The position numbers and the translations under genes are program-made. Below are positions 4,414 to 32,052 of a stretch of DNA of 36,992 bases, in pieces. The notes beneath the pieces were generated by a model that saw only the letters and a program-made list of their open reading frames with translations, was not told the origin of the DNA and did not search any database. Origin of the DNA: a virus. The stretch spans positions 1-36,992 of the IMG/VR virus record IMGVR_UViG_3300028844_003113, one strand, 5' to 3'. The first letter of the stretch is position 1. Each line of letters starts with the position of its first letter.

Positions 4414-6478
4414 AAAATACCCTCGTTCCAGGAATGTCGCATCCAAAAACGTCAGGGATATTGAACAAGGGCGCTCTGTCATTATATGGAAGCCTCTTGA
4501 GGTCCTGATGAAGTCCAGCAAGCCTTCATGGGGTTATGTAGTAGATGAGCACGACCCTAAATTATGGCTTCCAGTACCCGAACAGCTTATTCTTCTATTC
4601 AAAGCGGAAGAATACATCTACGAAAGCTCTTATGCCAGCATAGCTAGATGGCTAGGGGAGATGACTGGTAGGAATATAAGTCCTGCTTCCTTGAAGAGGG
4701 TTATTACCTCCGGGCGGATGCACGACTACTACGATCTAAAGAGAATAGCATCTAAAACTAAAAAGAAAACCAAGAAGGTTATCATATCAAAGGATGTGGA
4801 ACCTCCCGAGCCTTCCACTAAACGGACAGCTACGCTCATCCAGAGACTTGAGGGTAAAACTCCAGAAGAGAAGAAGCTAATACTCGCAGAGCTAGACGCT
4901 GAGCGAGCTAAAGCCGTTTCTACCACTAAGAGAAGACAAGCAGATAAGCTCAAGAGGGCATCTGAACCAGAAGCTCCCGTAGAGGAGCAGGCCGATGATA
5001 CTCCCAATGATGACAGTGATTCAAACACTAAAGAAGACACCACAGGCATCATCTGGAGACCTAATCCCGGACCTCAAACAGAGTTCCTTCAGTCAGATGT
5101 TAATGAGTTATTCTTCGGGGGGTCTCGTGGTGGTTCTAAATCAGAAGCTCTTGTAGCAGACCCTCTGAGATACTGTGGTAATAAGAATTTTCGTGGTCTA
5201 CTGATACGGAAACGATTGAAGGATCTCCGTGAAATCATCTCACGAGCCAAAACCCTGTATCCTCAGGCGTATGAAGGCACGAGATTCTTAAAGCAAGAAA
5301 GTATGTTCCTGTTCCCCTCCGGAGCTACTCTGGAGTTTGGTTATGCAGAAAATGATGCGGATATTGAGCAATATCAAGGGCAGGAATACGCTTGGATTGG
5401 GATTGATGAACTACCTCAGTTCAAAGATCCGGAAGTTTACACCCTACTTAGAGGGTCATGTCGAACTACTGATCCCCAGTTGTTGTCTCTTGGTCTCCCT
5501 GTAATGAGAATGACAGGAAATCCTGGTAATGTGGGATCTCCTTGGGTTAAGATCATGTTTATCGACCCTGCACCTGCTGGTGTAGTCTTTAATGTCAAGA
5601 GTAGCTTTATAGACCCTAGGGATGGCTCTAAGAAGGAAGTATCCCTTACCAGGCAATTCATCCAGTCCTCTGTATTCGATACTCCTCAGTTGCTTCAAGA
5701 TGATTCTTACCTTGCAACTCTGGCATCACTCCCTGAGCATAAGAAAGCCGCATGGCTATATGGACAATGGGGCGTAGTTGATGGGGCAGCATTCCCTGAA
5801 TTTGATAAAGAAGTTCATGTTATTGAGCCATTCGAGGTTCCTTCCCATTGGCCTAAGATACGAGCTACAGATTGGGGCTATTCAACCCCCTTCTGTACTT
5901 TGTGGTTAGCCTTCGACGGAGATGATACCGCCTATGTCTATAGGGAGTATTATGGGCAGGGGACATTGGCAGATGACTTTGCACGGCGCATTTGTGACTT
6001 AGAAGCCACTGATAGTAACATGGTGGATGCAGTAATAGATGGCTCTACGAATTCTAAGCGGGGAGAAATCGGCCCCAGTATCTACGAGATGATAGAGAAT
6101 GAGTTAGCTACGAGGGGCCATCTAGGGAATAGGTTTGCAGATCGCTCTCCGGGTTCTCGTGAGGCAGGTAAGCAGGAAGTTCATAAGAGACTTGCAGTGA
6201 GAGCTACTGGAGGTAAGACTGAAGAAGGTGAGCCTGTTAAGGAGCCTGCCCTGCTCATCTTTAATACTTGTGTTAATCTCATCAGAACTCTTCCCATGTT
6301 ACTCCCTGAGGATAATAATCCTGAAACAGTCAGTAAGAAGAATTCAGAAGATCATGCGTATGATGCTCTCCATTATGGGCTAAGGAGTCGCCCTATAACG
6401 GCACTAGACTTGGTAAATCAACAGCAATTTGCACAAGACCATGCACCTAAGATGGTAGATGCAATATTTGGATATTAG
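4406..6478 (+). CDS. terL: terminase large subunit (DNA-packaging ATPase and nuclease)
   Basis: A 690-residue motor protein that pumps DNA into the prohead and cuts concatemers. The ATPase domain shows a Walker A motif GGSRGGSKS (238-246) and Walker B IGIDEL with D334/E335. The RNase H-like nuclease domain shows acidic residues at D489 (ATDWGY), D545 (VIDGS) and D649/D653 (EDHAYDAL). About 205 residues precede the ATPase: a helix-turn-helix-like segment (ASIARWLGEMTGRNISPASL) and then a long charged, probably disordered linker. This makes it longer than a minimal TerL. A GIY-YIG endonuclease gene begins one base after its stop. Confidence 0.96.
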   Translation: MGKKYPRSRNVASKNVRDIEQGRSVIIWKPLEVLMKSSKPSWGYVVDEHDPKLWLPVPEQLILLFKAEEYIYESSYASIARWLGEMTGRNISPASLKRVITSGRMHDYYDLKRIASKTKKKTKKVIISKDVEPPEPSTKRTATLIQRLEGKTPEEKKLILAELDAERAKAVSTTKRRQADKLKRASEPEAPVEEQADDTPNDDSDSNTKEDTTGIIWRPNPGPQTEFLQSDVNELFFGGSRGGSKSEALVADPLRYCGNKNFRGLLIRKRLKDLREIISRAKTLYPQAYEGTRFLKQESMFLFPSGATLEFGYAENDADIEQYQGQEYAWIGIDELPQFKDPEVYTLLRGSCRTTDPQLLSLGLPVMRMTGNPGNVGSPWVKIMFIDPAPAGVVFNVKSSFIDPRDGSKKEVSLTRQFIQSSVFDTPQLLQDDSYLATLASLPEHKKAAWLYGQWGVVDGAAFPEFDKEVHVIEPFEVPSHWPKIRATDWGYSTPFCTLWLAFDGDDTAYVYREYYGQGTLADDFARRICDLEATDSNMVDAVIDGSTNSKRGEIGPSIYEMIENELATRGHLGNRFADRSPGSREAGKQEVHKRLAVRATGGKTEEGEPVKEPALLIFNTCVNLIRTLPMLLPEDNNPETVSKKNSEDHAYDALHYGLRSRPITALDLVNQQQFAQDHAPKMVDAIFGY

Positions 6479-6479
6479 T

Positions 6480-6965
6480 ATGACTAGTGGAATCTACAGA
6501 ATCACCTGTGTAAAGAACGGTAAGAGTTACGTTGGGAGCTCCCAGGATATTCCCCGTAGATGGAAAGAACACAAGAATAGGTTGAGGGCAAATAGGCACA
6601 TTAATCCTCACTTCCAGAATGCATGGAATAAATACGGCGAAGACTCCTTCGTTTTTTCTGTAGTAGAGAAGTGTGATAAGGATTGTCTTCTAGATAAGGA
6701 ACAAGGTCATTTCGATACAGGCATCAAAGGTAAGATGTTTAATGCCTCCTTTATCGCAGGGCGTGTAGAGATGACTACGGAAGTCCGGGCCAAGATGTCC
6801 CAGAGTAGTACAGGGAAGAATAACTCCTCCGCTAAGTTGACAGAAAAAGATGTTTTAGCTATCAGAGAAGATACGAGAGAGCATAAAGACATATCCGAAG
6901 AGTATGCCGTTAGCCCCTCACACATTAAGAACATAATAGCGCGTAGAAAGTGGAAGCACATATAA
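6480..6965 (+). CDS. free-standing GIY-YIG homing endonuclease
   Basis: A 161-residue protein. I place the start at the ATG at 6480, one base after the terminase stop, because the catalytic motif begins immediately (GIY at 4-6). The in-frame ATG at 6459 lies inside terL. Motifs are GIY (4-6), YVG (17-19), R26/R27 with W28, H31, and E74 in LLDKEQ. The C-terminus reads GKNNSSAKLTEKDV through SPSHIKNIIARRKWKHI, the helix-turn-helix DNA-binding tail typical of phage GIY-YIG and HNH homing enzymes. It fits tightly between terL and portal with no intron core around it, so it is probably a free-standing homing gene that targets related phages lacking it. Confidence 0.92.
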   Translation: MTSGIYRITCVKNGKSYVGSSQDIPRRWKEHKNRLRANRHINPHFQNAWNKYGEDSFVFSVVEKCDKDCLLDKEQGHFDTGIKGKMFNASFIAGRVEMTTEVRAKMSQSSTGKNNSSAKLTEKDVLAIREDTREHKDISEEYAVSPSHIKNIIARRKWKHI

Positions 6966-6966
6966 A

Positions 6967-9066
6967 ATGGTAGATGTATACGACGACGAAAACACTGCAG
7001 TTCTCGAAGGAGAACCTAAATCAGATGAGGAGCGCCGAGCTCTTACTGCACTTGCAGGGTCTGTCATCGATAAGTATGAAGCGGCCAAGCGCAACAGATT
7101 GGTTACTGAAACGCGATGGATGGACGCGCACGATGCTTTCCGAGGCATCTTCAAAGACTCCTTCACATCTACTGAGAAGAGTAAGGTTTTCATAAAGCTC
7201 ACGAAGACGAAGACCCTAGCAGCACATGGGCAGATTACAGATATCCTGTTTGGTCAAGGGAAGATCCCTCTGCGAGTAGAGGCTACTGAGTCTCCTATGG
7301 GCATTGCAGATACTGTTACAATCACTGCAGAGCCTGCTCCAGAAGAGGAAGTCCCTGAGTTTAATCCAATAGGCTTCGAAGGTGATGGCAATGATCTTCA
7401 GCCCGGCGATACTATTGATTCTCGCACAAGTAGGATTGGGGAGGCTCTCAAGAAGAAGCTAGGCCTTATCCCTGAGGAGAATATCACAGAAGACCCTGCA
7501 GCTATCGGCCTTAAGAAGTCTCCTGCAGATGAGGCTGCAGATGCACTTAATGTGGAAATCCAAGATCAACTCACAGAGTCTAATGCACAGATTGAGCTCC
7601 GTAAGGCTATTCTACAAGCGGCTCAGCTAGGATCAGGCTGTATTAAAGGCCCCTTCATTATTGAGAAGGAATATCCTAATTGGACTACTGATGAAGAGGC
7701 CGGGGAAGACGCTCCCCGATCTTACACACCTGAATTTAAGATTGTGCCAGACTTGGAGTATCGCTCTATCTGGGATATCTACCCTGATCCTAATGCAACA
7801 TGTGCTGACGATGCGGAGTATCTTGTAGATCGACACCTGATGTCTCGCTCCCAAATCCGTCTCCTTAAGAAGCAACCAGGATTTATTGCAGAGAAGATTG
7901 ACGAGGCTCTTGATGGAGCGCCCTTCTATACGCCTCTATGGTGGGAGACCACTCTTAAAGAGGACTTGGAAGACCTCGGCAATAATAACCGCTATGAAGT
8001 GTTTGAGTACTGGGGTATTGAGGACAGAGAACTCCTAGAGGAAGAAGGCTTTGATATTCCTGAGGCTCTAGCTGACTCAGATGATGTCCAAGTTAATCTA
8101 TGGATGGCAGATGGCGTAATTATTCGCATGGTAATCAACCCTTTCCGCCCTAAGAGAATCCCTTATATCATCTTCCCTCTTGAAGTAGACTTGTATAATA
8201 TCTGGGGGGTAGGCATCCCTGAGAATATGGAAGACTCGCAGCGGATGGTTAATGGGTTTACTCGTATGGCTGTTGACAATGCCGTACTATCCGGTAACAT
8301 AATGATTGAAGTTGATGAAAATAACCTTATGCCGGGGCAAGACATGGCAGTATATCCCGGTAAGGTTTGGCGCAGACGAGGCGGTGCTCCGGGCCAAGCT
8401 ATCTTCTCGACTAGTTTCAAGAATATTACCCCAGAACTCATACAGCTAGTCGACAAGTTCACTGTCTTCGCTGATCAGTCCACGGGCATTCCCTCGTTTG
8501 CTCATGGGCAGACTGGCGTACAGGGCATCGGCAGAACTGCCTCAGGTATCTCTCAGCTTATGGGCGCAGCCTCTGTAACAATTAAAACTATCGTTAAGAA
8601 CTTCGATGATTATCTCCTAGCTCCTCTAGGGATGGCACTCTTCGCGTTTAATATGCAGTATAATCGTAAGTTGGAAGTCCGTGGTGACCTTTCTATTAAG
8701 GCGATGGGTACTGACAGCCTAATCCAGAAGGAAGTACGAGCTAATCAGCTTATTCAGTTCTTCCAGATTGCACAGCAGTCTCCCTTCGTTAATCAAGGAC
8801 AGATGATTAAGGAGATTGCCAAGACTCTGGATATCGAAGAAGAAAAGCTCCTAAATGATCCTGAGCTACAGCAGTTGATGCAGGCCTTGTCTGCTCAGAA
8901 GCAGGGTGGCGGAGAGATGGTCATGCCACAACAAGGAGTAACGGGAGGAGCAACACCTCCCGCAGCACCAGCGCAGCCGGGACAACAAGGCTTCTCCGGT
9001 ACTCCTCAAGAGCAAGGCGGGGGGATGCCTCAACAGCAACAACCCATGCCTCCAGGAGTAGGGTAG
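6967..9066 (+). CDS. portal protein
   Basis: A 699-residue head-tail portal, forming the dodecameric ring at the packaging vertex that binds terminase and the tail. The call rests on length, position after the terminase, and portal-like sequence: a helical N-terminus, a central region with DIYPDPNA and FEYWGIEDRE, NPFRPKRIPYIIFPLE, and then the long helix and tunnel-loop region. The last 60 or so residues are rich in Gln, Gly and Pro (for example PQQGVTGGATPPAAPAQPG), a flexible tail. Its start lies two bases after the stop of the endonuclease gene, so its ribosome site is inside that inserted gene. Confidence 0.92.
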   Translation: MVDVYDDENTAVLEGEPKSDEERRALTALAGSVIDKYEAAKRNRLVTETRWMDAHDAFRGIFKDSFTSTEKSKVFIKLTKTKTLAAHGQITDILFGQGKIPLRVEATESPMGIADTVTITAEPAPEEEVPEFNPIGFEGDGNDLQPGDTIDSRTSRIGEALKKKLGLIPEENITEDPAAIGLKKSPADEAADALNVEIQDQLTESNAQIELRKAILQAAQLGSGCIKGPFIIEKEYPNWTTDEEAGEDAPRSYTPEFKIVPDLEYRSIWDIYPDPNATCADDAEYLVDRHLMSRSQIRLLKKQPGFIAEKIDEALDGAPFYTPLWWETTLKEDLEDLGNNNRYEVFEYWGIEDRELLEEEGFDIPEALADSDDVQVNLWMADGVIIRMVINPFRPKRIPYIIFPLEVDLYNIWGVGIPENMEDSQRMVNGFTRMAVDNAVLSGNIMIEVDENNLMPGQDMAVYPGKVWRRRGGAPGQAIFSTSFKNITPELIQLVDKFTVFADQSTGIPSFAHGQTGVQGIGRTASGISQLMGAASVTIKTIVKNFDDYLLAPLGMALFAFNMQYNRKLEVRGDLSIKAMGTDSLIQKEVRANQLIQFFQIAQQSPFVNQGQMIKEIAKTLDIEEEKLLNDPELQQLMQALSAQKQGGGEMVMPQQGVTGGATPPAAPAQPGQQGFSGTPQEQGGGMPQQQQPMPPGVG

Positions 9067-9071
9067 TTTAG

Positions 9072-9308
9072 ATGGTAGAATATGATGACTTACATGGTAA
9101 GATCGTTAAAGGGTCGTCAAAGCAATTCTTGAAGAATCTTCTAGGATACTATGACAGCCTTATTGAAAGTAAGATCAATACTCTAATAGATCACCCCCCT
9201 GTTGACAGTAATGAACTACATCAGGAAATGGGTTTTATTAAAGGGCTAAAGAGCTCGAAAGAGTATTTCGAAGGACTTATGAATGAAAAGTCCGATAAGT
9301 ACGAATAA
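9072..9308 (+). CDS. small helical hypothetical protein in head operon
   Basis: A 78-residue protein between portal and scaffold. It is predicted almost fully helical with charged and hydrophobic residues in alternation (KQFLKNLLGYYDSLIESKI, then GFIKGLKSSKEYFEGLM). No family is recognised. Short proteins at this position can be head-assembly accessories or small virion components, but that is only context. A promoter for the scaffold/capsid unit lies just after its stop. Confidence 0.65.
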   Translation: MVEYDDLHGKIVKGSSKQFLKNLLGYYDSLIESKINTLIDHPPVDSNELHQEMGFIKGLKSSKEYFEGLMNEKSDKYE

Positions 9309-9333
9309 AACAGTCTTGTAATATACTTTTTAC

Positions 9334-9361
9334 TTGACAATACATAGCAATCTCATATAAC
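9334..9361 (+). promoter_or_regulatory. sigma-70-type promoter for scaffold and capsid
   Basis: TTGACA (9334-9339) and TATAAC (9356-9361) have a 16-nt spacer, in the 109-nt gap before the scaffold gene. It shares the ACTTGAC and TATAAC words with the promoters at 3564 and 30421. A dedicated promoter here would raise scaffold and capsid levels above those of terminase and portal. Confidence 0.78.
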
Positions 9362-9417
9362 TAGCAAATTAAGTCGCTATTTCAGGGCACCCGTAAGGCC
9401 CCTACAGGAGGAAATAA

Positions 9418-10287
9418 ATGAGCGAAGATACTAAACGATTCGACGACACGGCTGTTCTAGGTGGACTCTACTCTAATCCTGAATTGTCACCAGAGGCACT
9501 AGAACAAGAACTTAAAGATATTGAGGCCCTAGAGGCAGAGCAAGCGCAGACTCTTATTGATGCTGCAGATGCTGCCGCCCTAGCCTCCGAAGTTAAGGCT
9601 GATAATCCTCTAGCAGAGGCACAACAGCACGACTACGAGAAACGATACAAAGACCTTCAGCGATTTATGAGCAAGAAGGACAAGGAACATGAGGCACAAT
9701 TAAGCGCCTTACGAGGGCAGCTAGAGGAGCAAGACGTAAGTCTCCCCAAGAGCGCCGAGGAGCTGCAAGCATTCCGGGATAACTACCCTGATATGTATGC
9801 GACAATTGAGACAGTTGCCTCTCTGAAGACTTCCGAGTCAGCCACTGAGCTATCTAACCGATTGGCTCTCGTAGAACGGCGGGAACAGGAAGTTGAGAAG
9901 AAAGATGCGCTTATCCTTGTGAAGAAGGCGCACGAAGATCTAGAAGATGTTGTAGGCTCTTCCGAGTTTACTGATTGGATCAATGCTAAGACAGAAGCAG
10001 GTTCCACTTGGGTGCGAGATGCAGCATTTGACTCAGTAACTGCACAACCAGTTATTGACGTAATTTCTCTCTATAAAAGAGAGAAGGGAATTGGGGAGCC
10101 TCGTAAAAGAGGTCGCCCTCGTAAAGATTCTGATCCTTCCGCAGGTGCCACTAAGGTGTCTACCGGAAAGTCGGAAGAACCTGGAGCAGGTCGTGAAACG
10201 GTCTACACCGAGGCAGATATTCAGAAGATGACCGATGAGGAATTTACTGAATTAGATGCTGCAGGTGCGTTTCGCGCTACTGTCTAG
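9418..10287 (+). CDS. capsid scaffolding protein
   Basis: A 289-residue acidic, helical protein immediately before the capsid gene. It has a very good ribosome site (AGGAGG shortly before the ATG). The middle is coiled-coil-like (YEKRYKDLQRFMSKKDKEHE and LALVERREQEVEKKD). A basic AT-hook-like segment RKRGRPRK lies at 229-236. The C-terminus ends in a helical acidic segment (YTEADIQKMTDEEFTELDAA) of the kind that contacts coat protein in podoviral scaffolds. Scaffolds guide prohead assembly and then leave. The AT-hook-like part is unusual and might also contact DNA or RNA. Confidence 0.88.
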   Translation: MSEDTKRFDDTAVLGGLYSNPELSPEALEQELKDIEALEAEQAQTLIDAADAAALASEVKADNPLAEAQQHDYEKRYKDLQRFMSKKDKEHEAQLSALRGQLEEQDVSLPKSAEELQAFRDNYPDMYATIETVASLKTSESATELSNRLALVERREQEVEKKDALILVKKAHEDLEDVVGSSEFTDWINAKTEAGSTWVRDAAFDSVTAQPVIDVISLYKREKGIGEPRKRGRPRKDSDPSAGATKVSTGKSEEPGAGRETVYTEADIQKMTDEEFTELDAAGAFRATV

Positions 10288-10420
10288 GTTCATAGACAAG
10301 CACGAAGTCCTAATACACCTTCCTAATAGCGCCCCGTAAGGACATCGCTACCATTAGAAAGCATTAGAAGTTACTGTTTGTTCTCTTGAGTAAGAAAAAA
10401 AGCACATATAGGAGATAACA

Positions 10421-13400
10421 ATGGCTTTTCAAACTGCCGCCGGTTACGGCAATCTTCCTCAGGGTAATTTCACACCAACGATCTACTCTCGTCGCGCTCA
10501 GGTAGCATTCCGCACCAAAAGCGTTATTCAGAGTATCACCAATACGGAATAGTAAAATACTCCCTTCAGGCAGAGATGCCTGTCGAAAATCTAGTGAATT
10601 GCTGGGAAGCCTGAAACGGTAATCAGCAGCCAAGCCCGGAAACGGGAAGGTCCAGAGACTAAAAAGTACAATAAAATAAGTACAGCCCAGTGCTGAAATA
10701 CTTACTCTTTTAGGCGACTATTATGAATAGAAAGAAACGAGGCATCCTTTATGGACTCGCCCTTGGTGATGGACACCTAAGCTACCGTCCCCAAAGAGGG
10801 AGCAACTGTGAGCTGATAGTAGGTCACTCTACTAAGCAGGCAGAGTATATCCATCACAAGGCAGACCTACTACTGAGTGTTACAGGTGGCTCTCGTGCCA
10901 ATATCCGCCCCACTAAGACGTTCCTTAAATCCACAGGGAAGTCCTACAGAGGGCTCAGATTTAGCAAGACCCACAAGTATTTTAACCAGATGCACAGAGT
11001 ACTTTACCCTAAAGGTAAAAAAGTGTATACGCGTAAAATACTAGACTTCCTGACAGAAGAGGGGCTAGCACTCTGGTTTATGGATGATGGTTCTATGAGA
11101 TGTAATAGAAATAAAGAGGGAGAAGTTACCTCTCTTTTTGCAGATATTACTACGCACTGTTCTAAGGAAGAGCTTGAGATTATTCAAGAATACTTCAGGG
11201 AAGAGTGGGGCATAGATGTCAAGGCTTCCAAAAGCAAAGGGGCATGGAATGTAAGGTTTAACACTAAAGCCTGTCATCGCCTAGCCTCTTTTATTTGGCC
11301 GCATATGATTCCTTCTATGGAATATAAGTTACGACACCTAGAAGATTTTGTACTTCGCAAGAGCGCTAGACATCCTCACATGGACATGAAGGATGATGAT
11401 ATAGTCCAGCCTCAATGGAATAAGAACATTGAGAATTAAAAGTTAAATGCTTTTAAGATAATAATCGCGTATTTTGGTGAGATCAAGGATTAACTAGTAG
11501 TCCCCTTGCGAGGGAAACCTGTAAGGAAAATTTGGTGAATTGCTGGGAAGCCTGAGACGGTAATCAGCAGCCAAGCCCGGAAACGGGAAGGTTCAACGAC
11601 CAAGAAGTACAATACTAATCGAGCATGCTTCATGCACTTAGCTCGCATCCAAAAGGAAAATAATGAACAGAAACCAACGAGGCATCCTCTACGGGATGGC
11701 TATTGGAGGTTCTTACCTTCGCCCTCGCAACAGGGATAGAGGTATAAATGTCTGCTTTCTGACAGAGCACTCAGTAGCCCAAAGCGAGTATATTAAGCAT
11801 AAGCGAGATCTTATGCATAGTATCTGCGGGGGCAAGAGACCTGAGATTCACTACAGAGAGAGGCACGACAAAAGAACGGATAAAGTATATAAGAGCCTAA
11901 GCTACAGCAGGACTCTCCTTTACTTTAATCAAATAAGAAAAGTTCTTTACCCCGAAGGTACAAAAACGTATACTCGAAAGATGCTGAACTATCTGACCCC
12001 CCAAGGACTAGCTCTTTGGTACATGGATGATGGCTCCATCAGGGGGTATACGAGCAAGAAGACAGGGAATATTTCCAGTATTCAAATGTCCCTTGCTACT
12101 CATTGTTCTAAAGAAGAAGCAGAGATTATCCAAACTTACTTTAAGGAGGTTTGGGGAGTTGATGCCCGGATTCATAAGAGGAAGAGTAATGGTCATATCC
12201 ATTACAATATCTGTATGAATACTAAGGCAGCACACCGCTATGCTTCTTTCATTTGGCCTTATATTATTCCCTCTATGGAATATAAAATGAGGTTCCTAGA
12301 AGACTTTGTACTTCACACGAGCGCCAAACCCCTGTCAAATGGGGATGATATGGTCTAATCTTAATGGAAATAAACATTAAGAATTAGGACTTAAATAGTC
12401 CTAAGGTAATAAAAACCCTTTATAATCAAAGGGTTATGTACGGTGATACCGTTAAGATCATTAAAGAACCTAGAGAAGCATTGGGTCCTGTTATAGTAAT
12501 ATAATAGTAAACATCTTGTGAATTGCTGGGAACCTGTAAAATGGTAATCAGCAGCCAAGCCCGGAAACGGGAAGGTTCAACGACTAGGTATATACTTAAA
12601 CTCAAGTAGTAGCCCTCGTGGCCAACGAAAGGACGATAAAATTGAATAAGAGAGATAGGGGCATACTTTACGGCCTTGCTCTAGGAGACGGATGCTTGCA
12701 TATAAGTAAGGACCAATCCCCTAAGACCGCTAGATTAGTTATAGGTCACGGACCTAAGCAGCTAGAATACTTAGAGGAGAAGAAAAGACTTCTGCATTCT
12801 ACCCTAGGGGGCAAACCTCCTTCCTTGTATACTTACAGGTCAAAAAATAAGAAGACAGGTAAGGTCTATACAAATCATCAGCTCTACAAGAATCATAAGT
12901 ATTTTAGGCAGATGCACAGAGTACTTTATAGTACGGGCAAGAAGAAGATAACTGAGAAGGTCCTAGGATATTTGACGGACTACAGTTTAGCTCTTCTTTT
13001 CATGGATGATGGGTCAGGAAAGGTCTTGAAGAATAAGGTAGGGATACCCACTTCAGCGACTACGAGGATAGCCACTTACTGCACAGAGGAAGAAGCCCTT
13101 CTCTGGAGAAAGTGGTTTGAGGACAAGTACTCTATATCCCCTAAGTTTGATGTGGACAAGAGATCACTACCCCTAGGATACTCCCTTAGATTCAATACAA
13201 CAGCCTCGAAAGAGCTTGTGTCAATTATCGCCCCCTATATAGTGCCTTGCTTAAAGTACAAGATACAGCACATAGATAAGTATATGCCCAAGAGCGCAAG
13301 ACACCCTTCAGGGGTGAAGATATAGTCTAATCTTTGTGGAAACGCAAAGGAAGGTGTAATTAAAAAGACCTTCGTAATACTAAGGATGTTTCAGTAAGCC

Positions 13401-14125
13401 CGTACGCTCGTGGTACGCAGGTTACTGCTCAGGATCTTGATGATGATGAAATTACACTGACAGTCGATCAAGCGAACTTCTTTGCATTCAAAGTGGATGA
13501 CATTGAAGCTAAACATGCCCATAACAATTGGACCCAGATGGCGTCTAGTCGTGCAGGCTACAAACTAGCAAATGGCATGGATACTAACATCCTTGCTTAT
13601 ATTGACTCCCAAATCCCTGCTGCTAATCAGCTAGGTACGGAAGCTTCTCAGGCCACTATCGCTAATTCTGGTAGCCCTGATTATACTCCACTGAGTATTC
13701 TGAATCGTTGTAAGCGTTTGCTCGACGAAGCAGATGTTCCTGAAGAAGGCCGTTGGTTCGTAGCCGATCCATTCTTCTGGGAGCTGATTGGTGATGAAGA
13801 CAGTAACCTCCTGAGCGCGGACTATGCTGAAAAAGGCATCTTGCGTAACGGTCGTGTTGCAGATGGTAACATCCGTGGCTTCAACGTCTTCATGTCCAAC
13901 AACTTGGGCACCGTAGGTACGGGCTCTACCGCAACTTCTGGTACTAATGGCACTTGGTTGCTGGCTGGTCATATTTCTGCTGTAGCTTCTGCTGAGCAGA
14001 TCAATAAGACCGAAACTTATCGTGACCCAGACAGCTTTGCTGATGTCGTCCGAGGTTTGCATGTGTTTGGTCGTAAGGCCCTTCGCACCGAAGCTCTCGT
14101 TGGCGCAAACTGGCGCACGGCGTAG
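10421..14125 (+). CDS. major capsid protein, split by three group I introns
   Basis: Proposed join: 10421-10549, 11470-11490, 12439-12471, 13385-14125, giving 307 residues. Exon 1 encodes 43 residues ending SITNTE and would be followed at once by TAG if unspliced. Exon 2 encodes YFGEIKD, exon 3 YGDTVKIIKEP, and exon 4 starts DVSVSPYARGTQVTAQDL. The joined text reads like podoviral HK97-fold coat proteins, which carry ITNTxYFGEI, GDTVxIIKEP and VDxANYFAFKVDDI in this order. Frame is kept at every junction, all junctions fall between codons, and introns 2 and 3 obey the exon-ends-U, intron-ends-G rule. GGAGATAACA precedes the ATG. It follows scaffold as expected. Splicing is predicted, not shown. 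Confidence 0.92.
10550..11469 (+). ncRNA. group I intron 1 of the capsid gene
   Basis: A 920-nt self-splicing-type intron. P1 pairs exon GGA plus intron TA with TA-C-TCC (10558-10563). The splice-site pair is A10549.C10560 instead of U.G. P10: intron AAAATA (10554-10559) is complementary to exon-2 TATTTT (11470-11475). P2 is CAGGCA-GAGA-TGCCTG (10567-10582). The core is at 10594-10660 with P4 (TGCTG/CAGCA) and the P6 hairpin CCCG-GAAA-CGGG. P7 pairs GACT (10657-10660) with AGTC (11403-11406). P9 is CTCAATG/CATTGAG (11411-11433). The endonuclease gene lies in the P8 region between the two P7 strands. Confidence 0.9.
10723..11439 (+). CDS. LAGLIDADG homing endonuclease, intron 1
   Basis: A 238-residue intron-encoded endonuclease. 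It has two LAGLIDADG-type motifs, as in the LAGLIDADG_2 style: ILYGLALGDG (8-17, acidic D16) and LALWFMDDG (115-123, acidic D122). Both are intact. Such enzymes cut long target sites in intronless alleles to copy the intron by repair. The ribosome site is weak (AGG then CGACTATTATG), perhaps keeping expression low or needing RNA structure. The 3' end of the gene runs through the intron's P7 and P9 strands, so its last 15 or so codons also have to fold as ribozyme RNA. It is homologous along its length to the enzymes of introns 2 and 3. Confidence 0.93.
   Translation: MNRKKRGILYGLALGDGHLSYRPQRGSNCELIVGHSTKQAEYIHHKADLLLSVTGGSRANIRPTKTFLKSTGKSYRGLRFSKTHKYFNQMHRVLYPKGKKVYTRKILDFLTEEGLALWFMDDGSMRCNRNKEGEVTSLFADITTHCSKEELEIIQEYFREEWGIDVKASKSKGAWNVRFNTKACHRLASFIWPHMIPSMEYKLRHLEDFVLRKSARHPHMDMKDDDIVQPQWNKNIEN
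11470..11490 (+). other. micro-exon 2 of the capsid gene (21 nt)
   Basis: Seven codons, YFGEIKD, flanked upstream by an intron ending in G (11469) and downstream by an intron whose P1 pairs exon GGAU plus intron TA with TAGTCC. The exon's last T (11490) forms the conserved U.G pair with G11500. It keeps frame with exons 1 and 3 and restores a motif conserved in coat proteins of this type. Confidence 0.87.
11491..12438 (+). ncRNA. group I intron 2 of the capsid gene
   Basis: A 948-nt intron. P1: exon GGAT (11487-11490) plus TA pairs with TAGTCC (11498-11503), with a canonical U.G. P10: GTA (11497-11499) with exon-3 TAC. The core at 11535-11601 is nearly identical to intron 1, including CCCG-GAAA-CGGG. 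P7 is GACC (11598-11601) with GGTC (12352-12355), a compensatory change relative to GACT/AGTC in introns 1 and 3. P9 CTTAATG/CATTAAG (12360-12381) also covaries with intron 1. Further hairpins are TAGGACT/AGTCCTA (12385-12403) and AACCCTTT/AAAGGGTT near the 3' end. It ends in G (12438). Confidence 0.92.
11663..12358 (+). CDS. LAGLIDADG homing endonuclease, intron 2, first motif degenerate
   Basis: A 231-residue paralogue of the intron 1 enzyme, with a good ribosome site (AAAAGGAAAATA before ATG). Motif 2 is intact: LALWYMDDG at 116-124. Motif 1 reads ILYGMAIGGS (8-17): the GDG that carries the catalytic Asp is GGS here, so the first metal-binding acid is missing. The rest of the protein remains open and conserved (KTYTRKMLNYLT, ATHCSKEEAEIIQ, SFIWPYIIPSMEYKMRFLEDFVL). 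It may be a nickase, a maturase-like splicing helper or a newly dead enzyme. The gene ends exactly at the P7 3' strand: codons DDMV and the stop form the S element. Confidence 0.9.
   Translation: MNRNQRGILYGMAIGGSYLRPRNRDRGINVCFLTEHSVAQSEYIKHKRDLMHSICGGKRPEIHYRERHDKRTDKVYKSLSYSRTLLYFNQIRKVLYPEGTKTYTRKMLNYLTPQGLALWYMDDGSIRGYTSKKTGNISSIQMSLATHCSKEEAEIIQTYFKEVWGVDARIHKRKSNGHIHYNICMNTKAAHRYASFIWPYIIPSMEYKMRFLEDFVLHTSAKPLSNGDDMV
12439..12471 (+). other. micro-exon 3 of the capsid gene (33 nt)
   Basis: Eleven codons, YGDTVKIIKEP, preceded by intron 2 ending in G (12438). The last T (12471) pairs as U.G with G12483 in the P1 helix of intron 3 (ACCU with GGGT). The peptide is the conserved coat-protein segment expected between YFGEI and the PYARGTQ motif. 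Confidence 0.87.
12472..13384 (+). ncRNA. group I intron 3 of the capsid gene
   Basis: A 913-nt intron. P1: exon ACCT (12468-12471) plus AG pairs with TTGGGT, with U.G at 12471/12483. P10: CATT (12479-12482) pairs with exon-4 GATG (13385-13388). The core is at 12518-12585 and shares the P4/P6 sequence of the other two. P7 is GACT (12582-12585) with AGTC (13324-13327). P9 is CTTTGTG-GAAA-CGCAAAG (13332-13349), and GAAGGT pairs with ACCTTC just before the end. The last base is G (13384). Confidence 0.92.
12642..13325 (+). CDS. LAGLIDADG homing endonuclease, intron 3
   Basis: A 227-residue enzyme. I choose the TTG at 12642 as start: AAGGA lies eight bases upstream and the protein then begins MNKRDRGILYG, in register with MNRKKRGILYG of intron 1. 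A GTG at 12618 in the same frame has no such support. Both motifs are intact: ILYGLALGDG (8-17, D16) and LALLFMDDG (116-124, D123). It is the most diverged of the three paralogues, for example TRIATYCTEEEALLW and YIVPCLKYKIQHIDKY. Its TAG stop lies in the P7 3' strand of the intron. Confidence 0.9.
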   Translation: MNKRDRGILYGLALGDGCLHISKDQSPKTARLVIGHGPKQLEYLEEKKRLLHSTLGGKPPSLYTYRSKNKKTGKVYTNHQLYKNHKYFRQMHRVLYSTGKKKITEKVLGYLTDYSLALLFMDDGSGKVLKNKVGIPTSATTRIATYCTEEEALLWRKWFEDKYSISPKFDVDKRSLPLGYSLRFNTTASKELVSIIAPYIVPCLKYKIQHIDKYMPKSARHPSGVKI

Positions 14126-14141
14126 GAAAGGATAGTATACT

Positions 14142-14624
14142 ATGGCTACAACTAATGACCTTACGCCTTCTGGCGAAGTAACCACTGCTGGTTCCTTCCC
14201 AGGTCGTCGTGGCACTAATGGTTTCGTGGTTCTGAAGCGTCGAGTAACTGCCGCAGAATGCGTAGCTGCCACTGGCACTGCGTTGATTGCTGCTGATACT
14301 TTTCAGATCATCAACCTTCCTGCCTACCATTATGTCCTTGCTGGCATCGTAGATTTTACGACTGCTGACACGGGCACTACCCTCACTGTTGATCTAGGTA
14401 TTGCCGCTGGTGATACTTTGCTAGATGGTGGCGATGGTACTACGGCAGGTATCCCTGTTGTTGGTACGAATGGTAATTTGGCAGCTAGTGCTTTTGTTAG
14501 TGCTACTGCAGATACGATTGATCTAACGATCAAGACTATCTCGGCTGCTAATGATGACTGGGTTGCTGAAGTCTCGGTAATTTGTGCTGATATTAGTGCA
14601 GACTACCACCCAGACTCTGCGTAA
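14142..14624 (+). CDS. probable head decoration or minor capsid protein
   Basis: A 160-residue protein right after the capsid gene, with AAAGGA upstream of its ATG. It is rich in Thr, Ala, Gly and Val, with no Cys clusters or charged helices, consistent with a mostly beta virion protein. The sequence has a short flexible N-terminus (ATTNDLTPSGEVTTAG) and then strand-like stretches. Position and composition suggest a capsid-stabilising or decoration protein; no specific family is recognised. Codon use here is similar to capsid exon 4, as expected for a highly expressed virion gene. Confidence 0.65.
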   Translation: MATTNDLTPSGEVTTAGSFPGRRGTNGFVVLKRRVTAAECVAATGTALIAADTFQIINLPAYHYVLAGIVDFTTADTGTTLTVDLGIAAGDTLLDGGDGTTAGIPVVGTNGNLAASAFVSATADTIDLTIKTISAANDDWVAEVSVICADISADYHPDSA

Positions 14625-14643
14625 CTGACGTAACATAGGTATT

Positions 14644-14674
14644 GAGGGAGGATGGCACAAACGCTGTCCCCCTC
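14644..14674 (+). other. strong hairpin downstream of capsid/decoration genes
   Basis: GAGGGAGGATGGC pairs with GCTGTCCCCCTC across a 6-nt loop (ACAAAC), with one bulged A and two G.U pairs. It starts 20 nt after the stop at 14624. There is no T run after it, so it may stabilise the abundant capsid mRNA or attenuate transcription rather than terminate it. The rest of the gap to 14790 shows nothing else clear. Confidence 0.5.
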
Positions 14675-14790
14675 GTACTTACCTTATGAATGCTAAGGGA
14701 TATCCATAAACGTATCCACTATTATCCATAAGGTAAACATATCTGACATTCATGTCTACATCATAAACATAAAGGAAGGACCCTCTAGAA

Positions 14791-15525
14791 ATGGGCAGTA
14801 CATACTTATCCCTAACTAATAAAGTCCTCCGCCGCTTGAATGAAGTAGAGCTTACTTCAGGAACATTCGCCTCTGCTTCTGGCTTCCATGCCGTAGCAAA
14901 GGACTCTGTCGTAGATGCTATTGGAGACATCCAACAAGCAGAGATAGAGTGGCCTTTCAATCACTCCACAGATACTATTACCTTAGCTACAGATGGCACT
15001 ACTGAATATGCTTTGGCGGCAGACGCTCAAGCTATTGATTGGGAGTCCTTCCATATGACTAAGGAAGTCCCTACTTCTGATGTAGAGGAAAAGTATCTCT
15101 CCCTCCTCCCTTATGACGAATACCTAAAGTATGGACTTAGAGCTAAGAACGCTAACTATGACTCTACTGGTGCAGGCAAGCCTGACTTCGTTGTCCCCTC
15201 TCAGAACTATAAAGCGATATTCTACCCCGGATACTCTGACGCTGCATATACTGTGGATTACGAGTATTGGGGTATTCCTACGGAAGTATCCGCCCATGAC
15301 GATACTACCACTATCCCTTCCAGGTTCGATTACATAATCGTCCAACGAGCTTTATGGGCTTGTTATATGTTCCATGATAATGACCAGCAGGCTACTATCG
15401 CCCGATCAGCGTGGCAAGAAGGTCTCCTACACATGAGGACTCTCCTTATTAATAAGACTGAGAGAGTATTCGATATGAGAGATGCTGGAAGGTCTTCTTC
15501 CACTAATGTACTAAGAGTCAGCTAA
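14791..15525 (+). CDS. head-tail adaptor / tail tubular protein A-like
   Basis: A 244-residue protein in the position of the T7 gp11-type tail tube A or adaptor, after capsid and before the nozzle. It has a helical N-terminus (LSLTNKVLRRLNEVEL), a segment with DAIGDIQQAEIEWPF, a strand-rich middle, and a helical end (YIIVQRALWACYMFHDNDQQ, then ARSAWQEGLLHMRTLLI), the pattern of podoviral adaptor proteins. It would form a ring under the portal and join it to the nozzle. AAGGAAGGA precedes the ATG. It abuts the next gene without a gap. Confidence 0.78.
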   Translation: MGSTYLSLTNKVLRRLNEVELTSGTFASASGFHAVAKDSVVDAIGDIQQAEIEWPFNHSTDTITLATDGTTEYALAADAQAIDWESFHMTKEVPTSDVEEKYLSLLPYDEYLKYGLRAKNANYDSTGAGKPDFVVPSQNYKAIFYPGYSDAAYTVDYEYWGIPTEVSAHDDTTTIPSRFDYIIVQRALWACYMFHDNDQQATIARSAWQEGLLHMRTLLINKTERVFDMRDAGRSSSTNVLRVS

Positions 15526-17046
15526 ATGCCTAGCTTACAGAAGATAAAGAATATAGAAGCCTCTGGAGGAATCATTGAGTCCACCACCTTGTTAAGTCAA
15601 GGAGAGAGGGCTCCGGGAACTCTCATTGCAGGGCAGAACATTGAAGGCGCTGTAGGACGAGGCTACCGGAGAATTAACGGCTCTGAGAAGTACTCAGCTA
15701 CGGCCCTTACAGGTACAGGAGCTGTGCTAGGCACCTTCCCTTTTAACTCAGGTGTTGTAGGTTGCCGTGAAGGCAATGTGGAGTTTGGTACAGGCACTAC
15801 TTGGACCTCTATTGTTACAGGACGAACGGCTGCTAAATATAGAGCTGCAAGATACCACTGGGTGCAAGATTCTATCGTGTTGGTTAATGGAACTGACTAC
15901 CCTATCAGGTATCAAGCAGATACGACTTACACAGAATTAACAGATGCTCCTCAAGGAGCTTTCGCAGTGGCTCCCTTTAAGCGGCATATGTGCTTCCTAA
16001 AAGGAACTAGCCTGTTTATCTCTTCTGCGGGGGACGAGACTGATTTCACCCTAGCTGCTACAGAGATTAACGTAGGGTTTACAATAAATCAGTTAGCAGT
16101 ATGGCGTGAAGCCCTTTATGTATTCGGCCCTAATAATATTGTTAAACTTATAGGGTCTAACCAAACTGACTGGGAGCTAGTTCCTGTAACAGGCCGCATA
16201 GGCTGCATCGCCCCAGACACTGTACAAGAAGTCGGTAGTGACATCTTCTTCCTCGCACAGGATGGTATGCGCTCTCTGGCTGGTACAGATAAGATCGGGG
16301 ATATTGACCTTGATACTACTACCCGAGGTATTGAAGCCAGGATTAATGAAGTTGTTGAAGCAGTAGGAACGGATGAAATATCTTCCATCGTAATCCCCTC
16401 CAAGTCCCAGTATAGGATCTTTTGGGATTCTTCTGCAACTTCTGCTGAAGTCTCTAAAGGACTCCTAGGGCATCTTACTGCAGAGTCTCTCCAGCTTCCT
16501 GAACTACAGACGGAATGGGAATGGTTTGACCTGAGAGGCTTCAAGGTAGCTTGTTCTGATTGGGACTATGATGGGATTAATGAAGTTGTAGTTTATGGGG
16601 GCTTCGATGGCTATGTCTATGAGTTTGAACAAGGCATCACTGTTGATGGAACAGCTCTAACATCTACAATGACATTTCCTCAATGGTATTATGGAGAGAC
16701 AGAGCGCAGGAAAGTCCTCCATAGTATTAAAGTCTATTTACGGCTTGAGCAGGGTGCTGATATAACTCTCTCAAACTCTCTTGACCTTGACGCACTCGGT
16801 ATTCCACAGCCCCCTTCCATTAACTTAGGGGATTACTTATCAGCAGCACCCTCAGTTTGGGGAGATGGATCTACATGGGGGGATGGGTCTACATGGGCAC
16901 AATCTGCCTACGATCAGACAGTAGAAGTTAATCTCATTGGCTCCTGCTTCTTTCACGCTATAACCCTCACGAGTTCAGGGGTAACAGACTCCCCTTACAT
17001 CGTGGATGGCTTTACAGTACAATATACACCTAAAGGACTACAATAA
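15526..17046 (+). CDS. tail nozzle / tail tubular protein B-like
   Basis: A 506-residue beta-rich protein following the adaptor. Repeated short strands with aromatic and glycine turns (FLAQDGMRSLAGTDKIG, YVFGPNNIVKLIGSN) suggest a beta-propeller, as found in tail nozzles and DNA-stabilisation proteins of podoviruses (T7 gp12 and P22 gp10 types). A doubled WGDGSTWGDGSTW motif and the ending YIVDGFTVQYTPKGLQ are also seen. It would form the tail tip that closes the channel. Its stop overlaps the ATG of the fibre gene (TAATG). Confidence 0.78.
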   Translation: MPSLQKIKNIEASGGIIESTTLLSQGERAPGTLIAGQNIEGAVGRGYRRINGSEKYSATALTGTGAVLGTFPFNSGVVGCREGNVEFGTGTTWTSIVTGRTAAKYRAARYHWVQDSIVLVNGTDYPIRYQADTTYTELTDAPQGAFAVAPFKRHMCFLKGTSLFISSAGDETDFTLAATEINVGFTINQLAVWREALYVFGPNNIVKLIGSNQTDWELVPVTGRIGCIAPDTVQEVGSDIFFLAQDGMRSLAGTDKIGDIDLDTTTRGIEARINEVVEAVGTDEISSIVIPSKSQYRIFWDSSATSAEVSKGLLGHLTAESLQLPELQTEWEWFDLRGFKVACSDWDYDGINEVVVYGGFDGYVYEFEQGITVDGTALTSTMTFPQWYYGETERRKVLHSIKVYLRLEQGADITLSNSLDLDALGIPQPPSINLGDYLSAAPSVWGDGSTWGDGSTWAQSAYDQTVEVNLIGSCFFHAITLTSSGVTDSPYIVDGFTVQYTPKGLQ

Positions 17047-18734
17047 TGGCTGGATACACACGGCAAGAAGCGGCTAACATCGTTACAGCTAATGCTATCG
17101 AAGCTTCTCAGATTAATAATGAGCTCAACGCTATTGATGCTGCCTTCCACGCTACTACAGGGCATCAGCATGATGGGACTACAGGGGATGCTCCTAAAGT
17201 CGTCCTAACGACTTCTGTATCGGGTACTCTCCCTATAGCTAATGGCGGCACTGCAGCAACTACTGCTGCCGCTGCCAGAACCGCTTTGGGTGTTGCTATT
17301 GGAAGTGACGTACAGGCTTATGATTCAGGTCTTACAGACATCTTGGCGTTAACGCCTACAGACAGTAACTTCATAGTAGGTAATGGCTCTACTTGGGTAG
17401 CTGAGACAGGGGCTACTGTTAGAACTTCCTTGGGCGTTCCAAGTACTGCTGAAGCTCTCCTCGTGGCTAACAATCTGAGTGATATTGGTACAGCCGCTAC
17501 TGCACGAACTAATTTAGGGTTGGCTATTGGAACGGATGTTCAGGCCTATCATGATAAACTAGCAGACATCTCAGGATTGTCCCCTTCTTCAGGAGAGTTC
17601 ATTAAGTGGGACGGGGCTAATTTCATAGCGTCTACCTCAGGCATCGGCACAGGAGACCTCCTTGCTGCTAATAACCTTTCTGATGTTGCCGCAGCAGCCA
17701 CTGCTAGAACTAACCTAGGTCTTGCTATCGGAACCGATGTTCAAGCTTATGATGCTCAACTCGCAGATATCGCTGCATTAGCTGTCACTGATAGTAACTT
17801 CATAGTTGGTAATGGTAGTACTTGGGTAGCTGAATCCGGAGCCACCGCAAGGACTTCTTTAGGTGTTCCGGGGTTGCCTGATGATAATTCTTGGACAGGC
17901 GCACATGATTGGTCTGTCCCTAGTTCTGAGACAGGGTTGACAGTAGACCTTACTGGAACGACTAGTCCTACAGGAGTTAAGCTTACTTACTCAGGATCTG
18001 CTACAGAAATGCAACCGATTCGTATAGAACACACGACAGGGGCTGCATACAGTCAAGGTAATGGGCAAGAAGGTGCTATAACAATCACCTCAGATGAAGC
18101 AGGAGCTAATTGGCTAGGTTCGTCTACAGCAGGTATAACTTGCCACTGGGATGGGGCGAGTCCCGCAGATAGCGATACTTTTCAAATCCTAAGAGTAACA
18201 GAGGGGGCAGGAGCAGCCCATCATGTCTATGGGCGTATAGACTACCTAATGTCGGATGTCACTAACGCCACTGAGGACGGTTACTGGCGTTTTGCCTCTA
18301 CTGTTGCTGGGACAATAGACACTGACGCTATGAAGATCGGCGCAGGCGTAACTCTAGGAGCTCCTACAGGGGGTTTCCAAGGAGCAGGTACTCTGAATGC
18401 TCTTGGTGTCTATGACGATAGTGTCCTCTTAACAGATTTCGTGGCAGATGCTTACAATGGCGAACTCGATGAGTCTCGCCTGAAGTTCTACGACAGTATC
18501 TGGCATGGTAATACGAATAATCCTGCCCGAGACTTCTCAGACAGAGCCCAGGAGAGTCTTGATATGAAGACTTTCACAGATACTTTCGTAGAAACCGGGA
18601 GCCTACCTGCTATGCCTACTCGTGAAGAATGGCTCCAGAATAAATACAGCGTAGGTGAATTAGTAAACTCCCTCTGGGAGACTGTGGAAGTACTCACCTT
18701 GCACATCAAGACTCTTAATGAGAGGACTGCCTAA
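17046..18734 (+). CDS. tail fibre protein with internal repeats
   Basis: A 562-residue fibre-like protein. The N-terminus (AANIVTANAIEASQINNELN) resembles tail-attachment segments. Residues from about 60 to 280 hold repeats: ANGGTAATTAAAARTALGV, then variants of LGLAIGTDVQAYDAQLADI and two near-identical copies of TDSNFIVGNGSTWVAE. Such repeats form slender trimeric shafts. The middle is strand-rich. The C-terminus, after MPTREEWLQNKYSVGELVN, is helical (ETVEVLTLHIKTLNERTA) and may trimerise. It would reach for the receptor or connect to the spike proteins coded further on. It overlaps the next gene by one base. Confidence 0.85.
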   Translation: MAGYTRQEAANIVTANAIEASQINNELNAIDAAFHATTGHQHDGTTGDAPKVVLTTSVSGTLPIANGGTAATTAAAARTALGVAIGSDVQAYDSGLTDILALTPTDSNFIVGNGSTWVAETGATVRTSLGVPSTAEALLVANNLSDIGTAATARTNLGLAIGTDVQAYHDKLADISGLSPSSGEFIKWDGANFIASTSGIGTGDLLAANNLSDVAAAATARTNLGLAIGTDVQAYDAQLADIAALAVTDSNFIVGNGSTWVAESGATARTSLGVPGLPDDNSWTGAHDWSVPSSETGLTVDLTGTTSPTGVKLTYSGSATEMQPIRIEHTTGAAYSQGNGQEGAITITSDEAGANWLGSSTAGITCHWDGASPADSDTFQILRVTEGAGAAHHVYGRIDYLMSDVTNATEDGYWRFASTVAGTIDTDAMKIGAGVTLGAPTGGFQGAGTLNALGVYDDSVLLTDFVADAYNGELDESRLKFYDSIWHGNTNNPARDFSDRAQESLDMKTFTDTFVETGSLPAMPTREEWLQNKYSVGELVNSLWETVEVLTLHIKTLNERTA

Positions 18735-22353: not shown

Positions 22354-22809
22354 ATGATACGATACGCGACTGAAGAGGACATCCCTAGGTTACTAGACTT
22401 AGGAGAAGAATTTGCATCTACCTTAGAGAGACTCCCGAAGGGGACTTCATTCTCTAGAGAAGATGTTGAGAAAGTAGTTAGGCACTTAATTAACTCAGAT
22501 GGCTCTTGTATCCTAGTTTACGAGAAAGATGATATAATCATAGGTATCCTCGGAGGGGAACTCTTACCGTTATACTTCTGCCCTCAAGCTAAGAATGCTA
22601 TGGAGCACTTCTTCTTTGTCACTGAGAAAGCTCGTAGCGAAGGCGCAGGAGACAAGCTCATGGAGGCTTTCATTTATTGGGGCAAGGAAATGGGTGCAGT
22701 AAGTGTCATAATGGTCTCTATGAATGTTTCCACAACAACTCACTCTAAAGAGGTCTTCGAGAAGCATGGCTTCAAAGACTTCGAGACAGCATATAAAAAG
22801 GACTTCTAA
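22354..22809 (+). CDS. GNAT-family N-acetyltransferase
   Basis: A 151-residue acetyltransferase. The fold order is visible: MIRYATEEDIPRLLDL (beta1-alpha1), a strand pair around CILVYEKDDIIIGILGGEL, then FFFVTEKARSEGAGDKLMEA, where RSEGAG is the acetyl-CoA pyrophosphate-binding R/Q-x-x-G-x-G/A motif. The end, SKEVFEKHGFKDFETAYKKDF, is the usual closing segment. It would transfer acetyl from acetyl-CoA to an amine or protein substrate, which is unknown. It has a strong ribosome site (AGAGGAGG) and lies inside the ejection-protein operon, with a one-base overlap to the next gene. Small acetyltransferases occur in this location in several podoviruses. Confidence 0.9.
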   Translation: MIRYATEEDIPRLLDLGEEFASTLERLPKGTSFSREDVEKVVRHLINSDGSCILVYEKDDIIIGILGGELLPLYFCPQAKNAMEHFFFVTEKARSEGAGDKLMEAFIYWGKEMGAVSVIMVSMNVSTTTHSKEVFEKHGFKDFETAYKKDF

Positions 22810-30864: not shown

Positions 30865-31455
30865 ATGGCAGGAGAAATCATAGACGGTATAGGCCAAGGC
30901 TATCGAGCCAAGGTTAATGCCAATAATGCCTTGGAGGTACAAGCGGTATCTGTTGATACAGAAACTGCTGCATCTGAACGAGGGGATGGCTATAGTATAG
31001 ACTCAGGTCTTATTGCCTATACAGGCACTTCGAGTAGCTCCTTGCTCTACCTCAAGAATAATGAGGACAGAGACCTTATCTTGACGAGAATGTACATCTC
31101 AATAGGTAATGTTACAGCCACTGTCACGGATATCCCTTACCTAACTATCGTCCGAGACCCTACAGGCGGGGATGTTATTACCGATGCTACAGATGCTCCT
31201 AACCACACCAATAGAAACTTCGGCTCTAGTAAGACGTTGACAGCAGATGCTTACATTGGTAAAGATGGCGGCACTGTGACAGGCGGGGACGAGTTCCTTG
31301 TCACTCAACTTACAGCACCTGATCGCCATGTGTTTGATGATGACATCATACTTCCAAAAGGTAGCTCCGTTGGGGTTAAGATCAATGTGAATACCTCGGG
31401 AGGGGCCACGGTACATGGAGCTATGGTCTGCTACCTTCGAGATGAAAACGAATAA
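30865..31455 (+). CDS. predicted beta-rich virion protein, paralogue 1
   Basis: A 196-residue protein with Gly/Thr/Asp-rich strand-and-turn composition and no catalytic signature. It is clearly homologous to the next protein along its whole length: both share SLxYLKNNEDRDL, a GPTGGD- or DPTGGD-type motif, KxGGTVTGG and LPKGSS. Proteins like this are commonly minor tail or capsid-surface beta-sandwiches in phages. It is translated in series with its neighbours, with gaps of 1 and 9 nt. A structural role is inferred. Confidence 0.65.
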   Translation: MAGEIIDGIGQGYRAKVNANNALEVQAVSVDTETAASERGDGYSIDSGLIAYTGTSSSSLLYLKNNEDRDLILTRMYISIGNVTATVTDIPYLTIVRDPTGGDVITDATDAPNHTNRNFGSSKTLTADAYIGKDGGTVTGGDEFLVTQLTAPDRHVFDDDIILPKGSSVGVKINVNTSGGATVHGAMVCYLRDENE

Positions 31456-31464
31456 GGAAGAACT

Positions 31465-32052
31465 ATGGCTGAACAGATAGAAGATGGACTAGGCTCAGGA
31501 CGTAGGGCTAAAGTAGATCGGAACAATGCACTTCTGACTCAAACCATCATGGAGACAGGGGATGCGGAAGCCTCTAATAATGGCGATGCCTACAATATTA
31601 ATACAGGGGATATCGCTTATACGGGTACAGGAGATAGCTCCCTAATCTACCTCAAGAATAACGAGGACAGGGATCTCCATATTGATGCTATCGCTGTAGG
31701 CGTAGGACTTCTTACCGCTACTATTACAGATTCGGTTAGAGTAACCCTCATCAATGGCCCTACAGGTGGCGACCTCATCAGTGATGCTACTGCTGTAGAT
31801 ATGAACCAGAACAGGAACCTTGGGTCTACTCGGACCTTAGAAGCCTTGGCTTACAAAGGAAAGAATGGCGGCACTGTAACAGGGGGAAATGATATAGGTC
31901 AGTTCTACCTGTCAAGCCAGAGCAGACTCTATGCCCCTATAAAGCTAGTACTTCCTAAGGGGTCGTCTGCTGCCCTTAAAGTAGACTTGAATACTTCTGG
32001 CGGCGGTAATGTATACGCAGCCTTTGTCTGCCACATAGCTCCTTTGAGATAG
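31465..32052 (+). CDS. predicted beta-rich virion protein, paralogue 2
   Basis: A 195-residue tandem paralogue of the preceding protein. Shared blocks include IAYTGTxxSSLxYLKNNEDRD and NxNRNxGSxxTLxAxAYxGKxGGTVTGG. Between these blocks the two have diverged strongly, so the duplication is not recent. AAGGAAGAACT precedes the ATG. The pair may form alternative or complementary surface subunits. Confidence 0.65.
   Translation: MAEQIEDGLGSGRRAKVDRNNALLTQTIMETGDAEASNNGDAYNINTGDIAYTGTGDSSLIYLKNNEDRDLHIDAIAVGVGLLTATITDSVRVTLINGPTGGDLISDATAVDMNQNRNLGSTRTLEALAYKGKNGGTVTGGNDIGQFYLSSQSRLYAPIKLVLPKGSSAALKVDLNTSGGGNVYAAFVCHIAPLR

Follow-up and report, generated by a model that had tools for sequence, protein, structure and literature searches.

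A phage capsid intron with A opposite C in place of the U.G pair at its 5' splice site

The U.G pair is critical for choosing the 5' splice site of a group I intron, and among thousands of known introns the 5' exon ends virtually always in U and exceptionally in C, as stated in passages of PMC4227781. An earlier note on the DNA studied here had described an intron with A opposite C at this position, which raises the question of whether the two bases are real and where such an intron would be cut. The window, i.e., the whole stretch that was analysed, spans the 36,992 bases of a virus record and represents a fragment of an HMO-2011-like phage, with PHROG matches to terminase, portal/adaptor and major head proteins. 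Its capsid protein shares 46.9% identity with the Puniceispirillum phage HMO-2011 protein and 47.2% with the counterpart in Roseobacter phage CRP-345.

The capsid gene (10421-14125) is split into four exons by three group I introns, each of which contains a LAGLIDADG_2 endonuclease gene identified by Pfam (Table 1). When spliced, the exons form a single open frame of 307 residues, and every junction is in phase 0. The junction of exons 1 and 2 was set from the open spliced frame and from the homologous proteins, most of which read TN[ST][DE]YFGE. Rfam matches to group I introns were found at all three sites; intron 3 scores above the RF00028 gathering score of 50, and introns 1 and 2 fall under it yet have E-values of about 1e-8. 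The 3' part of the endonuclease gene of intron 1 overlaps P3', P8 and P7'. In-frame stop codons open the 5' splice sites of intron 1 (TAG TAA at 10550-10555) and intron 2 (TAA at 11491-11493). Elsewhere in the window, a GIY-YIG endonuclease ORF (6459-6965) lies between the terminase and portal genes and starts inside the end of the terminase frame, a GNAT acetyltransferase-like ORF (22354-22809) is found among the structural genes, and two neighbouring ORFs at 30865-32052 resemble a tandem duplication on visual inspection and have no Pfam match.

Table 1. Features of the split capsid gene and of intron 1 (positions in the window).
Feature	Position	Strand	Evidence
Capsid exon 1, 129 nt, last codon GAA (Glu)	10421..10549	+	Open spliced frame; protein homologues
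P1 hairpin of intron 1, A10549 opposite C10560	10546..10563	+	Sequence; in MFE of local RNA; same bases in contig L088
Group I intron 1, A/G register, 920 nt	10550..11469	+	RF00028 42.1 bits, E 1.2e-8; ends from frame and protein
Internal guide sequence AAAATACTCC, without any G	10554..10563	+	Sequence
P2 hairpin CAGGCA/TGCCTG	10567..10582	+	Local RNA fold
P3 5' strand TCTAG, pairs with 11366-11370	10590..10594	+	Sequence
P7 5' strand GAGACTA, bulged A (putative G-binding site)	10655..10661	+	Analogy to the Tetrahymena layout in passages of PMC10020454
LAGLIDADG_2 endonuclease gene of intron 1	10723..11439	+	ORF; Pfam PF03161, E 5.6e-32
P3 3' strand CTAGA	11366..11370	+	Sequence
P7 3' strand TAGTCC	11402..11407	+	Sequence
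Candidate omega-G of intron 1	11469	+	Junction register comparison
Capsid exon 2, 21 nt; 5' end TATTTT pairs with guide as P10	11470..11490	+	Junction registers; spliced frame
Group I intron 2, sibling control, U.G at 5' site and omega-G	11491..12438	+	Rfam 42.9 bits
Capsid exon 3, 33 nt	12439..12471	+	Spliced frame
Group I intron 3, sibling control, U.G and omega-G	12472..13384	+	Rfam 64.7 bits
Capsid exon 4, 741 nt including stop	13385..14125	+	PHROG major head protein, E 1.1e-38 on 13493-14122; spliced frame

The boundary of exon 1 and intron 1 reads ATACGGAA followed by TAGTAAAATACTCCC. In the P1 helix formed there, G10546-C10563, G10547-C10562, A10548-U10561, U10550-A10559 and A10551-U10558 are paired, and A10549 faces C10560, just as the earlier note had read it. 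The helix (GGA-A-UA with UA-C-UCC) aligns base for base with that of intron 2 (GGA-U-UA with UA-G-UCC), which has U11490.G11500 at the matching place, again as described before; in intron 3, CCU pairs with GGG and the U.G is present. Because the guide lacks G, no register of intron 1 can form a U.G pair. The guide complements GGAGTATTTT exactly, and with it a GAG codon where the exon has GAA. Of the three P1 helices, that of intron 1 has the least stable predicted fold (-2.0 versus -4.6 and -4.7 kcal/mol). In nearest-neighbour calculations, the cognate A.C and the crossed mismatches A.G and U.C all gave -0.5 kcal/mol; with no computed gain over other mismatches, the A.C is, by this model, not a repaired pair. 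A coordinated change that prevents cross-splicing between introns 1 and 2 was also considered, and is unsupported because these energies are equal. The 6-bp P10 (AAAATA with TATTTT) reported previously is present and gains a seventh pair, G.U, under the rule used in the register analysis.

The rest of the ribozyme core of intron 1 looks intact from its sequence. Both strands of P3 have changed in a compensatory manner, from TCTAG/CTAGA in intron 1 to TTTGG/CCAAA in intron 2 and TCTTG/CAAGA in intron 3, and such changes also occur among the relatives (P7 of the introns and P3 of intron 2 were read by eye). The family-model core, the P3 and P7 helices, the compensatory changes in P3 and the P10 together point to a group I intron by fold that is without one near-universal, though not strictly defining, feature, the U.G pair. 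In cryo-EM structures of the Tetrahymena ribozyme, bases A207 and A114 of the J4/5-J5/4 region read the U-G wobble, according to passages of PMC10020454. J4/5 and J5/4 are identical in introns 1 and 2, so the wobble receptor of intron 1 appears without visible adaptation relative to its U.G sibling. A competing fold was also found: GAGUAU in exon 1 (10531-10536) is perfectly complementary to AUACUC in the guide (10557-10562), and this helix folds better than P1 (-13.9 versus -12.2). Such a helix could link splicing with translation, or could have arisen by chance.

We compared the exon side with capsid homologues, after excluding 8 of 92 loci that were the window's own, near copies or HEG-only. 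Of 81 aligned rows, 80 have Asp at the position of the last exon 1 codon (60 GAT and 20 GAC), where the window has Glu. The A at the exon end is thus derived, since a pyrimidine is usual there. The sole homologue with Glu (also GAA) is L037, in which the codon continues directly into the sequence of the next exon. On the guide side, the base in intron 1 differs from that in introns 2 and 3 and in the capsid intron of a relative (L003). The earlier claim that both bases of the wobble changed together goes beyond what was found. The exon base is derived and the guide base is unlike that of the introns compared, but the searches turned up neither an intermediate nor a sister intron at this site. 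A pattern for a sister intron with U.G at this site (GGANTAGTAAAATANTCCC) occurred in 15 viral and 19 genome stretches, and a group I core lay within 250 bases of it only in contig L088 (1 of 34). Wider intron and endonuclease-gene searches (returning 1 locus, 5 stretches, 3 loci, 1 locus, 1 stretch and 10 stretches) revealed no other version of the intron 1 site.

Three cut registers of intron 1 yield the identical mRNA, namely 10549/11469 (exon ending in A, intron in G), 10550/11470 (U/U) and 10551/11471 (A/A). The earlier note had recognised this ambiguity but counted two registers, missing A/A. None of the three combines a U at the exon end with a terminal G of the intron, and only A/G makes an omega-G available. 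The accompanying statement that either cut breaks a near-universal rule therefore stands insofar as no register keeps both U.G and omega-G, although both rules have exceptions in print in the published passages cited here. As the A/G register breaks one rule and the shifted cuts break two, we favoured A/G.

Related introns served as controls. Eight junctions were placed, those of introns 2, 3 and L003 through the protein frame and those of five GenBank phage introns against intronless relatives; the ends of the former three were placed from the frame and the expected pairing and are less independent than the other five. Of 19 phage records, 8 were taken for study. The count leaves out the first L098 intron as a ninth junction (5' match of 47 bases at 89%, registers T/A and G/C) and the nine introns L139-L147. 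A U/G register exists in all eight controls and in none of the registers of intron 1. The U.G pairing never ranks below third among the guide candidates of these eight introns; for L003 and L094, a competing candidate that has A in the guide equals or exceeds it in score. The A/G register of intron 1 has no P9.0 pair, and the U/U and A/A registers have one each; three of the six control introns compared for P9.0 also have none, so P9.0 does not tell the registers apart. The L003 intron (4484-4748) interrupts the capsid gene of the relative at a different site and has U.G and omega-G.

Because the core is paired and neither the endonuclease gene nor the capsid frame is disrupted, we infer that intron 1 splices; the register used is likewise inferred. 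The favoured reading, to which we assign a probability of about 0.5, is a real and probably active group I intron whose 5' cut falls after A10549. Besides keeping omega-G and breaking a single rule, this cut agrees with the alignment of P1 and guide to those of intron 2 and with the same P1 in a contig that carries another endonuclease gene, and group B IStrons give a precedent for splicing after an exon base other than U. The exon-guide helix (GGA/UCC, the A.C and two intron pairs) would dock into the core with the register that the U.G siblings use, and an exogenous G would attack after A10549. Omega-G11469 would then occupy the P7 site, the 3' exon would be held by P10 (6-7 bp), and the exons would be ligated to read ...NTE-YFGE.... 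The long P10, directly beside the splice pair, could help to hold the site. The weak P1, the unadapted receptor, the P9.0 count and the better-folding exon helix stand against this cut, and Doudna, Cormack and Szostak reportedly found in 1989 that C.A, not A.C, is able to replace U.G. With its weakened recognition, intron 1 probably lags behind introns 2 and 3 in speed or accuracy. Tentatively, and with somewhat less than even confidence, we propose that accurate splicing after A occurs in this natural group I intron of an essential phage gene, with A.C in the active site, no visible change in the receptor, and helix register and long P10 standing in for U.G.

One rival reading is an error of assembly or base calling at 10549 or 10560. 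The window is a metagenomic contig, the near-identical cores of introns 1 and 2 might confuse assembly, and the identical contig L085 (matching 10937-17788) begins downstream of P1 and leaves it uncovered. However, contig IMGVR_UViG_3300028829_004000 (L088), separate from that of the window and sharing the sample prefix 3300028829 with L085, is 99.95% identical to window 6362-10661 and has the same A and C in an unbroken exon-P1-core sequence. A base-calling error is unlikely, given that L088 has the same P1 together with a different LAGLIDADG_2 gene and SNPs of its own at positions 9221 and 10528. A sequencing error, which the earlier note had named as one possible refutation, is thereby mostly closed off, and we regard an artefact as extremely improbable. 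Past the base matching window 10661, L088 and L091 join the 5' half of intron 1 to the different LAGLIDADG_2 gene, which reflects either a natural swap of endonuclease genes within one intron or chimeric assembly across the shared core. With both bases real, the cut might instead fall after U10550, paired with A10559, so that the same message would be made with U-A in place of the wobble and an intron ending in U11470. The exon-end U would be kept, and the one P9.0 pair would join omega-2 to the second base after P7, but both the U.G and the omega-G rules would be broken, and all eight placed relatives allow a U/G register. We know of no intron with omega-U, and consider this cut unlikely. A cut after A10551, paired with U10558, would end the intron in omega-A at 11471. 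This has a precedent in the sea-anemone ND5-717 intron, which ends in omega-A according to passages of PMC8146996, and would likewise gain one P9.0 pair and leave the mRNA unchanged, but it breaks both rules and retains neither the exon-end U nor the intron-end G, which makes it very unlikely.

The main alternative to the cut after A10549 is impaired or failing splicing of intron 1, in which the A.C form splices poorly or exon 2 is frequently skipped by joining exon 1 to exon 3, making this a partly deleterious allele. The weak P1 and the competing helix fit this view, and skipping of the 21-nt exon 2 would preserve the frame. Exon skipping gives the dominant product of the SIOphi terminase, according to passages of PMC11878797. 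Against it, the skipped product would lose YFGEIKD, a segment whose first four residues, YFGE, recur in most homologue rows, and the A.C allele is present in two contigs, though these differ by just 2 SNPs over 4300 bases and thus attest only a short persistence. The capsid gene is, moreover, essential. Failing splicing is accordingly judged improbable, and the cut after A10549 is retained as the preferred reading.

In the literature searched, which mostly lay outside subscription journals, no description of a natural 5' splice site with A.C was recognised. With two U.G-capable siblings beside it, intron 1 offers a ready-made test of the role of the U.G pair, and its interest comes chiefly from this ease of testing. 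Efficient splicing would mean that the U.G signal allows more flexibility than is taught, and poor splicing that the phage tolerates slow or leaky maturation of its capsid message.

Among known systems, intron 1 shares its core with introns of phage genes, i.e., introns 2 and 3, the L003 capsid intron, and those of the Vequintavirus terminase (L096), Felixounavirus DNA polymerase (L097), Shigella phage Moonfish RNAP2 (L094) and Acinetobacter terminase (L098). The core motif, the P3/P7 layout, a possible omega-G and, in several, a P10 adjoining P1 are common to them, whereas all eight placed junctions allow an exon-end U with omega-G and a U.G guide candidate, which intron 1 does not. Group B IStrons such as BcISt1 of Bacillus cereus, shown by RT-PCR to splice after G, resemble intron 1 in an exon end other than U and a first intron base U, but have a U-G pair one place further in and carry IS transposase genes, as described in passages of PMC4227781. 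In intron 1 the exon ends in A or U, the +1 U faces A and the guide has no G, unlike in group B IStrons; among plus-strand ORFs of at least 80 aa, it has only the LAGLIDADG_2 gene and no IS transposase genes. The ND5-717 intron is, like intron 1, a natural departure from a near-universal end-base rule, but, according to passages of PMC8146996, its departure lies at the 3' end and in a mitochondrial gene.
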